Positions 38,428 through 42,979 of a DNA stretch of 64,000 nt are shown piece after piece. Every line of letters starts with the position of its first letter. Positions within the stretch are counted from its first letter, which is position 1. This stretch comes from Caulobacteraceae bacterium (lineage in GTDB: Bacteria > Pseudomonadota > Alphaproteobacteria > Caulobacterales > Caulobacteraceae). The notes under the pieces are model-generated. The model did not search any database. It worked only from the letters and a program-made list of their open reading frames with translations, and was not told the DNA's origin. The stretch covers positions 30,429-94,428 of the forward strand of contig JAIESL010000035.1 of assembly GCA_019746095.1 (NCBI GenBank), read 5' to 3'. Made by a program: the position numbers and the translations under genes.

Positions 38428-39606
38428 TCAGGCGCTCGCGTACAGGGTCGCGAGCGCCGCCAGGGCCTGCTCCGCCTCGGCGCGGTCCGGCGTCTCGTCC
38501 TCGACGCCGTAGCCGACCATCTGGCTTGCGCCATTGGCCTGGACGACGATGCCGTCGTGACGCGGCACCATGCTGATCGCCCGGAAATTCAGGGCATAGG
38601 TCAGTTCGGGCTGCGGCGTCAGCCAGGCGATCTGCCCCCGGACCGGGACGATGCTCCCGTCCCCGAACAGGGCCCGGGCCCCATAGCCCGTGCAATTGAC
38701 CACCACCGGTTCAGCGAGGCTCGCCAGCTCCGATGGATGGTGGAACGTTCGCTGCACGATCCGGCCACCCTCCATCAGGAAGGCCTCGGTCAGCTGCCGC
38801 GCATACTCCGCCACATTGAAGATCATCTGTGGCACCACCCGCGCGGACGCCACCGGGAAGGGATGCTCGCCCATCCCCAGCAGGCGCGAATGGGGCACCA
38901 GATCCGCCAGCCGGTCAGCATAGTGGGCGAACCCGATACGGCCCGGCGTCGGTGCCGGCCCCACCGCGCCGTTCCCGCCCCGTTTGGCCGCGAGATTGTA
39001 CTGGTCGATGAACCGCACCGGATCGCCGTCGAGGCCGACGAAGGCATGGTGATCGACCCAGGACCGGCGCGCCATCGCCTCCCATCGCGCAGGGAAGTCC
39101 GAGGTCACGGCAGCGTCCGCCGCGATGCGCGAGTCCGGCGACCAGACGCCCGTGGCCCGGGCAGACCGGGTATAGGGGGTGCGCTCGGCCGCATGGATGG
39201 TGACCCGCGCCCCGGCCCTGAGGATCTGCAGCGCCGCAGTCAGGCCCAGGGCACCGCAGCCGATCACGGCAACATCCGCCTGTCCTCCCGCCAGCGCCAG
39301 ATCGCGCGCCATCGCCGCCGATCCCCAGGAAAGGGACCAGCCCGACCCGCCGTGGCCGTAGTTGTGAACCACCCGTTTGTCGCCGACCGCCTCCACCTCA
39401 ACCCGCGGGCCCTGCGCGCGGAAGGGCCGGGTGCAGACGGTGATGCGGCTCAGCCGACCCGGATCGGTCAGCAGCGGCGCGAAAACCTGACGCTGGAAGA
39501 CCGGACGCGCCGATGTGATCAGGGTTGCGGGCGCTGAAACGCAGCCTGCCAGCCCTGCCGAACCCAGGCCGGCGAGGACCATCCGACGGTGCAACTGAAC
39601 GTCCAA
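38428..39606 (-). CDS. Exported D-amino-acid-oxidase-like flavoprotein with circularly permuted domain order
   Basis: A 392-residue protein. A twin-arginine-like HRRMVLAG (Arg7-Arg8) and a lipobox LAGC (Cys22) suggest export and lipid anchoring. Residues 58-105 (RPFRAQGPRVEVE, then VVHNYGHGGSGWSLSWG) correspond to the C-terminal end of normal D-amino-acid oxidases. The FAD-binding start VAVIGCGALGLTAALQ, normally at residue 1-20, comes only at about 112. VVNCTGYGARALFG and VRGQIAWL then appear near the end, and the protein stops where a normal enzyme would continue into the FRP/HNYGHGG end. The likely activity is oxidation of a D-amino acid or similar amine. Both halves lie in one open frame. 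Confidence 0.85.
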   Translation of the reverse strand: MDVQLHRRMVLAGLGSAGLAGCVSAPATLITSARPVFQRQVFAPLLTDPGRLSRITVCTRPFRAQGPRVEVEAVGDKRVVHNYGHGGSGWSLSWGSAAMARDLALAGGQADVAVIGCGALGLTAALQILRAGARVTIHAAERTPYTRSARATGVWSPDSRIAADAAVTSDFPARWEAMARRSWVDHHAFVGLDGDPVRFIDQYNLAAKRGGNGAVGPAPTPGRIGFAHYADRLADLVPHSRLLGMGEHPFPVASARVVPQMIFNVAEYARQLTEAFLMEGGRIVQRTFHHPSELASLAEPVVVNCTGYGARALFGDGSIVPVRGQIAWLTPQPELTYALNFRAISMVPRHDGIVVQANGASQMVGYGVEDETPDRAEAEQALAALATLYASA

Positions 39607-39782
39607 CAGGGATCCCTCGCGACAGTCGGCCCAGGCGGCCTAACATCCGCTGCCGGACCCGGCAATGCGAGGCCGGCCAAACCCCGTCGTACAACCGGGA
39701 CAACCTGTACCGTTGCCGCCGGGCCAAAGTCGTAGTCATACTCTTTCACCGGTCGCAGAACCGGAGGGGTGGAGTGAGAGTG

Positions 39783-40628: not shown

Positions 40629-41246
40629 TCAGCCCGCGCTGGCGTCGGTCCAGGCGACGATCTGCGCATTGAGGTCGCGGGTCGCCTGGTCGTAGGCCTC
40701 GACGATGGCGGACACCCGGTTGGCCGTCGCCGGCTGCTCGACGGTGAACACCCGCTCCGCAGCCACCGTCCGCTCCGGCAGGGCCAGCAGGCGCGCGCGC
40801 GCCGTGACCACTACGGTCGGGGCCGTACCCGGCGCATCGTAGCGGGCCTCAAACGTGCGGACGTCGATGTCGAGCGACCGCTCGCCCCGGGTCAGTTCGC
40901 GCGGACCGATGAGCCGGACCCGCGTCGCCTGGCCTGCGAAGGCGTTCTCGATACTCTCCATATACAGGTCCGACGCCGGCGAGACCCAGCGGGCTCCGGC
41001 GATGTAGGCGGTCTCGGTGCCTGTGACGCCGAGCAGCCGGTCGCCCTCGACCGCCGCCGGAAACTCGACCCGACGCAGGGTCACCTGCACGGGACTGGCT
41101 CCGACCGACGCGGCGGAGGACGACGCTGCGGGGCCGCCGAAGCGATAGGTCTGCACCGGCTCCGGCGTCGCCAGTAGGGCGCAGGCCGACAGGGCCATGG
41201 CTGTCAGTGTGAGTGCGATCGGGCGGATCAGCGAAAAGCGGTTCAC
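40629..41246 (-). CDS. ABC-type transport auxiliary lipoprotein (DUF330/PqiC-like)
   Basis: A 205-residue lipoprotein with signal MNRFSLIRPIALTLTAMALSAC ending in the lipobox LSAC. The mature part is the mixed alpha/beta fold seen in MCE-associated lipoproteins (VQTYRFGGP, VQVTLRRVEFPAAVEGDRLLG, SIENAFAGQATRVRLIG). It is the last gene of the MCE operon and probably sits on the inner leaflet of the outer membrane as a partner of the MCE protein. ATG overlaps the MCE gene by four bases. Confidence 0.88.
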   Translation of the reverse strand: MNRFSLIRPIALTLTAMALSACALLATPEPVQTYRFGGPAASSSAASVGASPVQVTLRRVEFPAAVEGDRLLGVTGTETAYIAGARWVSPASDLYMESIENAFAGQATRVRLIGPRELTRGERSLDIDVRTFEARYDAPGTAPTVVVTARARLLALPERTVAAERVFTVEQPATANRVSAIVEAYDQATRDLNAQIVAWTDASAG

Positions 41247-42181
41247 GGCTGGACCTCCATTTCCTTGGTCGGCGGACGAGCGATGAAGTCACGCGGGCTG
41301 GCGCGAACCTCGTCGATCAGTCCCTCCAGCGACCGGGTCGCATCCTCCAGCCCCTGGATCGACTGTTGCAGCTGCGGCATGCCGGTCGTGGCGAACTCGT
41401 TGAGCGGCCCCTCGACGTTGGTCGCGGTGCGGTTGATCGAGGCCACCGCCGACCGCGCCTCCTCGGCTGCGGCATTGATATTGGCCACGGCCTCACGACC
41501 GTCGCCCTCGATCACGCCACGGGTGCTGACGGCGAGGGCCTCGAACTCGGCGACGGCCGAATTGGCCTTGGTCAGCGCCTGTTCAAGCTGTTCTAGCATG
41601 CCCTTGCGGGCTTCCAGTTCGGTGGTCAGGGCCTCGACGTTCTTCAGGCTGGTGGAGAAGGAGCGGACATTGTCGTCCGAGAGCACCCGGTTGATCCGGT
41701 TCAGCGCATCGACGGTCTGGGCCAGCACCGTGCCGGAACCACTCAACAGCTCGGCGATGGGCGAGGGCTGGCTCTGGATCACAGGGACCACATTGTCCGG
41801 ATACTGTTCTTTCAGGATCGCGCTCTGCGGGTTGCCGGCGGTGATCTGGATATAGTTCAGGCCGGTGATGCCCTGCGGCTCGAGCTGGGCCCGGGAGGTA
41901 ACGCGGACCGGCGTGGTCGCATCCACACGGATGCGGGCGATGACCTGATCGCCCTTCTGCGGGTCAAGATTCAGGTCGGTGACCTCTCCGACACGGATGC
42001 CGTTGAAATGCACCTCGCCCCCTTCGGACAGGCCGCGCACGGGGCCGTAGAAGACGATGTCATAGACATCGTAGTCATTGTTGAACTGCAGACGGGCCAG
42101 CCAGATGGCGAACACCGCCAGCGCCGCCATCAGGGCGATGGAGGCGATGCCGACGGCGGCGTAGTGGGCGTCTCTTTCCAT
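41243..42181 (-). CDS. MCE/MlaD-family substrate-binding membrane protein
   Basis: A 312-residue protein with one N-terminal membrane span (IALMAALAVFAIWLARLQF). An MCE domain follows, from about residue 40 to 115, with VRGLSEGGEVHFNGIRVGEVTDLNLDP. The remainder is a long helical coiled-coil ending in RPPTKEMEVQP. It would form the periplasmic ring that carries lipid between membranes. It lies 12 bases after the ATPase gene. Confidence 0.92.
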   Translation of the reverse strand: MERDAHYAAVGIASIALMAALAVFAIWLARLQFNNDYDVYDIVFYGPVRGLSEGGEVHFNGIRVGEVTDLNLDPQKGDQVIARIRVDATTPVRVTSRAQLEPQGITGLNYIQITAGNPQSAILKEQYPDNVVPVIQSQPSPIAELLSGSGTVLAQTVDALNRINRVLSDDNVRSFSTSLKNVEALTTELEARKGMLEQLEQALTKANSAVAEFEALAVSTRGVIEGDGREAVANINAAAEEARSAVASINRTATNVEGPLNEFATTGMPQLQQSIQGLEDATRSLEGLIDEVRASPRDFIARPPTKEMEVQP

Positions 42182-42193
42182 TCTCGGCTCTCC

Positions 42194-42979
42194 TTAAGCC
42201 GCCTTGACCGCGGCGCGACCGCGCGGACCAAGGAAGTATTCTCTTATCCAGGGATGCTCTGAATGCTCGAGGTCCTGAACCGTGGCCTTGGCGACGATGC
42301 GTTTGTCCGCAACCACTGCAACCTTGTCGGTGATGGCGTACAGGCTGTCGAGGTCGTGGGTGATCATGAAGACGCTCAGGCCCAGGTCGTCAGCCAGCCG
42401 ACGGATGAGTTCGTCAAACGCCCCGGCCGCGATCGGGTCCAGCCCGGCCGTCGGCTCGTCAAGGAAAAGCAGCTCGGGATCCAGGGCCAGGGCCCGGGCG
42501 AGACCGACCCGTTTGCGCATGCCGCCGGACAGTTCGGCCGGCTTGAGATGATGCGACTCCGGCTTCAGCCCCACCATGGCGATCTTCATCTCCGCCAGTT
42601 CGCGGATCACATCCTTGGGAAGGCGGGTGTGTTCCACCAGCGGCGAGGCCACGTTTTCGATGACGGTCAGGGCCGAGAACAGGGCCCCCTGCTGGAACAG
42701 GATGCCCGTCCGGCGCTCGATGTCGGCCTCCTCCTCTGCCGTCATGGTCGCGCGATCGTAGCCGAGGACCTTGACCGATCCGCCCTCCGGCTCCTTGAGG
42801 CCGATGATCGAGTTGAGCAGGACGGTCTTGCCCGATCCCGAGCCGCCGACCACGCCGAGCACCTCACCGCGCTCAAGCTCCAGATCGAGGTTTTCGTGGA
42901 TCACCCGCTCGCCGAACTGACTCAGCAGGCCGCGCACCTCGATCAACAGCTCGGGGGCTCTTCCCGGAACGGCGGTCAC
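42194..42979 (-). CDS. ABC transporter ATP-binding protein, MlaF type
   Basis: A 261-residue ATPase. Walker A is GGSGSGKTVLLNSI near residue 46, the ABC signature is LSGGMRKRVGLARAL near 150, and Walker B is LLFLDEPTAGLDP, followed by the ITHDLDS switch. LFQQGALFSALTVIENVA is typical of lipid-transport (Mla/Mce) ATPases. It powers the permease coded by the overlapping upstream gene. Confidence 0.94.
   Translation of the reverse strand: MTAVPGRAPELLIEVRGLLSQFGERVIHENLDLELERGEVLGVVGGSGSGKTVLLNSIIGLKEPEGGSVKVLGYDRATMTAEEEADIERRTGILFQQGALFSALTVIENVASPLVEHTRLPKDVIRELAEMKIAMVGLKPESHHLKPAELSGGMRKRVGLARALALDPELLFLDEPTAGLDPIAAGAFDELIRRLADDLGLSVFMITHDLDSLYAITDKVAVVADKRIVAKATVQDLEHSEHPWIREYFLGPRGRAAVKAA

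Follow-up and report, generated by a model that had tools for sequence, protein, structure and literature searches.

A circularly permuted D-amino-acid oxidase fold in a widespread family of bacterial flavoproteins with Tat-type lipoprotein signals

In monomeric sarcosine oxidase (MSOX), FAD is carried by Cys315 through an 8alpha-S-cysteinyl bond. The D-amino-acid oxidases (DAAO, EC 1.4.3.3) and D-aspartate oxidases (DASPO, EC 1.4.3.1) of PF01266 have their FAD strand first and their RPxR and HNYGHGG blocks last. The substrate carboxylate is bound by Arg283 in human DAAO and by Arg278 in human DASPO (PMC8260693). Two-domain flavoenzymes rarely undergo circular permutation in nature. Here, we describe a permutation that is old, fixed, and widespread, in proteins currently annotated as "FAD-dependent oxidoreductase" or left unannotated.

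The gene in question lies in a 64,000-nucleotide stretch of DNA from a Caulobacteraceae bacterium (the window). Its product shares with DAAO and DASPO all of the blocks, including GxGxxG, the RPxR block with the carboxylate-binding Arg, and HNYGHGG, as well as the predicted fold, but it differs from them in having a permuted block order, a Tat-lipoprotein signal, no GGT motif, a residue other than Tyr at the Tyr228/Tyr223 position, and Cys in place of Gly two residues before the Arg. It has a Cys in the same alignment column as the MSOX family and belongs to the same fold superfamily, but the MSOX enzymes are not permuted, have other active-site residues, and are only remotely similar. TIGR01377 (monomeric sarcosine oxidase) did not appear in the protein's list of the 25 best NCBIfam families and had no match in the genome at E ≤ 1e-60. 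ThiO (TIGR02352) has the DAO fold and a GLRP motif with Arg, but the protein scores 31 bits against that family's cut-off of 250.8, and ThiO is not permuted and has Gly at the position of C58. DadA (NF001933/NF009074) is likewise an FAD enzyme, one that feeds the respiratory chain, but the scores of 16.9 and 18.4 bits fall below cut-offs of 383–494, and DadA is not permuted; no DadA above cut-off was found in the genome.

The gene is a single intact frame of 392 codons on the minus strand, with a TTG start at 39606 and a stop at 38428, and it is present in single copy in a 3.05-Mb Brevundimonas-like genome. Pfam DAO matches the protein in two stretches from residue 111 on (E = 9e-25). The features of the gene are as follows.

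38428..39606, minus strand: whole gene of the permuted DAAO-fold flavoprotein, 392 amino acids, TTG start (Pfam DAO, AlphaFold)
39613..39618, minus strand: Shine-Dalgarno-like GAGGGA, 7–12 nucleotides 5' of the TTG start (putative, from the sequence)
39541..39606, minus strand: Tat-type lipoprotein signal, residues 1–22, with RR at 7–8 and lipobox LAGC ending at C22 (low pLDDT, as expected)
39289..39483, minus strand: block that is C-terminal in canonical DAAO, residues 42–106 (PDB search, re-ordered sequence, profile alignments)
39433..39435, minus strand: C58, a conserved Cys that aligns with the Cys to which FAD is covalently bound in the MSOX family
39427..39429, minus strand: R60, the substrate-carboxylate Arg, equivalent to Arg283 of human DAAO and Arg278 of human DASPO, invariant
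39322..39366, minus strand: HNYGHGGSGWSLSWG, residues 81–95 (PDB search, family alignment)
38431..39288, minus strand: FAD-binding and substrate domains in canonical order, residues 107–392 (Pfam, profiles, AlphaFold, Foldseek)
39241..39273, minus strand: VAVIGCGALGL, residues 112–122, first beta strand and GxGxxG of the FAD-binding fold, internal here

In the window, the gene is flanked by a convergent pair of CoA-transferase subunit genes (Pfam CoA_trans) and a divergent TelA-like gene, whose Pfam TelA score is below cut-off, and it is outside any obvious operon. An ordinary lipid-transport operon lies at 40629–42979 on the minus strand, with an ABC_trans_aux lipoprotein (Pfam match) followed by open reading frames that, by eye, resemble an Mla-type substrate-binding protein and an ABC ATPase.

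An earlier note, made from the letters of this DNA, had claimed a clean circular permutation without truncation and had placed the motifs accordingly. In the 392-residue frame, these positions are correct: RPFRAQGPRVEVE is found at residues 60–72, MVPRHDGIVVQANG at residues 346–359, and GxGxxG at residues 116–121, where it is present as in DAAO but internal rather than N-terminal. The block order of DAAO is therefore reversed, and the new C terminus of the protein falls just before the point where the FRP block normally comes next. The single sequence had DAAOs and D-aspartate oxidases as its best relatives in the PDB, and these matched as two pieces in swapped order (residues 322–371 of the DAAO 7ct4 with query residues 54–103, and 140–249 with 234–336). 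When the PDB was searched with a profile of 67 relatives (A2), model positions 106–337 aligned with 21–253 of 7ct4 and positions 50–108 with 319–377 (E = 4e-29). The sequence was put in canonical order by moving residues 39–106 behind residue 392, and its best PDB match, again 7ct4, was then one continuous stretch (129–349). The re-ordered family profile matched a profile of six canonical bacterial DAAOs end to end over 309 columns (hhalign, E = 9.3e-55).

The junction between the two pieces is crossed in one aligned piece by 79 of the 80 relatives from the named genome collection and by 124 of all 130 relatives fetched, the remainder being fragments, a split or masked copy, and one canonical control. 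Block order was scored by alignment spans; the signal peptide of some copies itself reads GxGxxG. Codon-position-3 GC is uniform along the gene (0.86 for codons 36–106 and 0.85 for codons 107–392). The relatives with the same order and the uniform codon-position GC rule out an assembly error, frameshift, or chimera; the earlier note had named an assembly error or frameshift joining two genes among the findings that would undo its proposal. An ordinary DAAO with a spurious N-terminal extension is ruled out as well, because the FRP/HNYGHGG block occurs once, on the N-terminal side only. From these results, we conclude that the product of 38428–39606 has a DAAO fold that is cleanly circularly permuted.

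Structure prediction and a search for relatives had been suggested as further checks, and both agree with the permutation. The AlphaFold model, which was built from the A2 alignment of 67 relatives, is confident over both pieces (mean pLDDT 91.6, pTM 0.86); prediction is poor only for the first 40 residues and a few at the C terminus. In this model, helix 93–105 enters the first FAD strand (111–115) via a 5-residue link. The closest solved structures found by Foldseek were DAAO and DASPO, with ∼300 columns matched, and opine dehydrogenase was also among the structural matches. The TM-scores of 0.5–0.6 against DAAO come from a sequential search and show the match of the larger piece only, which is what a search that is not permutation-aware would give for a permuted chain.

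As for relatives, the permuted form is no one-off: it constitutes an old bacterial family with a wide distribution. At E ≤ 1e-20, relatives were present in 30 of the 101 genomes sampled from the same genus and in 14 of the 385 sampled from the class. When one genome per species was scanned, the pattern matches listed included at least 572 confirmed relatives, from which 80 were kept, covering Alpha-, Beta-, and Gammaproteobacteria, Acidobacteriota, and Verrucomicrobiota. By tblastn, permuted proteins were also identified on rhizobial plasmids and in Nonomuraea. When a canonical Streptomyces DAAO was used as the query against a sample of 190 alphaproteobacterial genomes, the only matches were permuted proteins with Gly at the C58 position, and no canonical DAAO was found in that sample. 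The family is apparently undescribed hitherto: our literature searches, whose coverage took in few subscription journals, found no report on circular permutation together with DAAO or FAD-dependent oxidoreductases and none linking DAAO with Tat in this sense, and we claim no priority.

The N-terminal segment HRRMVLAGLGSAGLAGC has a twin Arg before a hydrophobic stretch and a lipobox Cys, as in Tat-exported lipoproteins, and TatC is encoded in the genome. With signal peptides judged by motif and not by a trained predictor, RR and a hydrophobic stretch were present in 77 of the 80 relatives and a lipobox in 52; the three relatives without an RR signal are masked, truncated by the end of a contig, or atypical. 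The earlier note had considered RR and LAGC unusual for this family. Both motifs are present, as it had said, and the Tat-type lipoprotein signal is conserved, but a signal together with the permutation is the rule in a large family rather than an exception. The Tat-like signal suggests that the protein is exported.

A tree was built from 42 re-ordered sequences, 35 permuted and 7 canonical. A branch with support of 100/99 separated the two groups, so a single permutation suffices to explain the permuted proteins. The branch of proteins with Cys at position 58 (the Cys branch) had support of 100/100. The rhizobial and Nonomuraea proteins (L045, L046, and L047) have the same permutation and are on the same side of the tree, where they branch first, but they have no Tat-like or other signal peptide and keep both the Gly and the Tyr. 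Their position indicates that permutation most simply predates export, and permutation probably came before export in this family; loss of the signal in the rhizobial and Nonomuraea branch would be an alternative, although not the simplest.

Analysis of the active site showed that R60 and HxYGHGG are invariant in 67 of 67 relatives. Two residues before R60, C58 is Cys in 66 of the 67; the sole exception (L124), from an Opitutales metagenome-assembled genome, carries Gly here and lies deepest in the Cys branch. When the proteins were aligned jointly with canonical DAAO, ThiO, and MSOX-family proteins, the last being relatives of solved sarcosine oxidases, all four MAFFT modes placed C58 in a column that is Cys in the MSOX family and Gly in DAAO and ThiO, and a profile alignment also placed it in the MSOX-family Cys column, with the alignment bridging ∼20% identity. 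This placement predicts a covalent FAD in the Cys branch, probably attached to C58. The Tyr that contacts the substrate carboxylate (Tyr228 of DAAO, Tyr223 of DASPO) is M346 in this protein and Val, Met, Ile, Ala, or Phe across the branch, so the substrate may differ from that of DAAO. Its equivalent is retained only in the permuted branch with Gly, and the GGT motif is lost in the Cys branch. The loss of this Tyr and the gain of the Cys make "D-amino-acid oxidase" unsafe as a name for the activity. The reading of the protein as a permuted DAAO fold with a Tat-type lipoprotein signal is upheld, but, given the block order and the lost Tyr, naming it a D-amino-acid oxidase is not warranted.

The neighborhoods of relatives were analyzed for partner genes, and no family-wide conserved partner was found. 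In Kozakia, the gene annotated 5 bases downstream of the permuted gene is a cytochrome c, and a small cytochrome c is encoded directly downstream in two Komagataeibacter and two Acetobacter (Acetobacteraceae, like Kozakia) and in one alphaproteobacterial metagenome-assembled genome. These downstream cytochromes c are homologous (39–67% identical to each other), and the pairing is mostly within one clade. In Bryobacterales F-183 (Acidobacteriota), a Rieske protein and a cytochrome b–cytochrome c fusion are encoded downstream. The gene in the window has no cytochrome partner beside it, and the link to cytochromes comes from other organisms. Partners of this kind argue for a dehydrogenase rather than an H2O2-forming oxidase in some lineages; at least where cytochrome partners occur, the enzyme may be a periplasmic dehydrogenase that delivers electrons to the respiratory chain.

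Beta-lactamase-fold hydrolases, prolyl oligopeptidases, TonB receptors, an amino-acid permease, and a PRK09061-family amidohydrolase were found beside some copies. Hydrolases of the beta-lactamase/D-aminopeptidase fold, the amidohydrolase, and the permease would fit use of amino acids or peptides, although unevenly, and the set as a whole is too uneven to name a substrate. A CysK/MFS neighborhood in Erythrobacteraceae was rejected as a partner, as it reflects housekeeping synteny of close relatives. One locus (L107:3517-8487) contains a permuted DAO, a cytochrome c, a PRK09061-family amidohydrolase, and a tannase/feruloyl-esterase family protein, and is a candidate catabolic operon.

The reading that we favor, and judge to be rather likely, is that of an exported, lipid-anchored enzyme with a permuted DAAO fold that binds an amino-carboxylic acid through R60, probably holds FAD on C58, and has a cytochrome or O2 as its acceptor. 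The protein would fold with FAD in the cytoplasm and then be exported by Tat, and the lipid on its N-terminal Cys would anchor it at the periplasmic face of a membrane. The 5-residue link would join the canonical N and C termini, and the new N terminus would provide a flexible tether of ∼40 residues. The substrate, of which R60 would hold the carboxylate, would be a small amino-carboxylic acid; the most likely candidates are D- and N-substituted amino acids. A hydride would pass from the substrate to FAD, which would probably be linked to C58 by a thioether as in MSOX, and electrons would leave for a c-type cytochrome or the respiratory chain, in at least some lineages, or for O2. We infer, from sequence, a periplasmic and probably covalently flavinylated amino-acid dehydrogenase or oxidase. 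The protein probably acts as a flavoenzyme of the DAAO superfamily, most likely oxidizing a small amino acid in the periplasm; peptidoglycan-derived D-amino acids would be plausible substrates. The narrower proposal, a family of periplasmic, lipid-anchored, permuted DAAO-fold dehydrogenases that use Cys-linked FAD to pass electrons from amino acids to c-type cytochromes, is a tentative one.

The absence of the Tyr228 equivalent and the GGT motif from the Cys branch, the Cys at the sarcosine-oxidase position, and the opine dehydrogenase match could also be read as signs of an exported enzyme (oxidase or dehydrogenase) that acts on a different amine or on an N-substituted amino acid (sarcosine, an opine, or a proline-like compound), with D-amino acids as poor substrates. 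We consider this possible but doubtful, as R60, RPxR...RxE, and HNYGHGG are of the DAAO type and not of the sarcosine-oxidase type, and the re-ordered profile matches the bacterial DAAOs at E = 9e-55 compared with E = 9e-5 for the sarcosine-oxidase family. It is unlikely that the protein is a true periplasmic D-amino-acid oxidase, with non-covalent FAD, O2 as acceptor, and H2O2 released in the envelope, that would scavenge peptidoglycan-derived or environmental D-amino acids or make peroxide as a signal or antimicrobial. The conserved R60 and HNYGHGG of DAAO, the nearest structures (DAAO and DASPO), the lack of an adjoining c-type cytochrome gene in the window and in most relatives, and a genome without DadA above cut-off are all consistent with such an oxidase, whereas the loss of the second substrate residue (Tyr), the near-invariant Cys in place of Gly close to the catalytic Arg, and the cytochrome partners in several genera argue against it. 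A misjoining of two genes, or of a canonical gene, by assembly or frameshift is exceedingly improbable, since we found no point in its support and the same order in one frame in 79 of 80 independent genomes, the uniform codon-position GC, and the confident AlphaFold model across both pieces all contradict it.

If enzymes of this family are active on D-amino acids, then D-amino-acid oxidation would be placed in the envelope of many Alphaproteobacteria, and a new enzyme class would be available for biosensors and biocatalysis. If the Cys-linked dehydrogenase proposal is true, covalent flavin would have arisen once more in the DAO superfamily, after permutation and export. The permuted proteins form a series: cytosolic proteins that retain both Gly and Tyr, exported ones that retain both, exported ones that lack Tyr, and exported ones that have Cys. 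With this series, it becomes testable in which order permutation, export, and perhaps covalent attachment of flavin arose.

A third permuted branch (L042, L043, and L030) is predicted to be exported and keeps the Gly, the Tyr, and the GGT motif; its sequences are apparently intermediate between the cytosolic permuted forms and the Cys branch. In addition, the released proteome of Asaia bogorensis lists a "D-amino acid oxidase," A0A060QKK3 (PMC12502724), which may be a member of the exported permuted family. The rhizobial genes for cytosolic permuted DAO-like proteins (L045:2357-6684, L047:2470-6696, and L046) lie between genes for a berberine-bridge-type FAD enzyme and a ThDP enzyme, in a conserved, uncharacterized three-gene operon that is found on plasmids, some of them conjugative, and partly in Mesorhizobium. 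In Mesorhizobium onobrychidis (L044:3917-4980), the annotation of the permuted gene gives two overlapping FAD-dependent oxidoreductases, and this copy is probably frameshifted or split.
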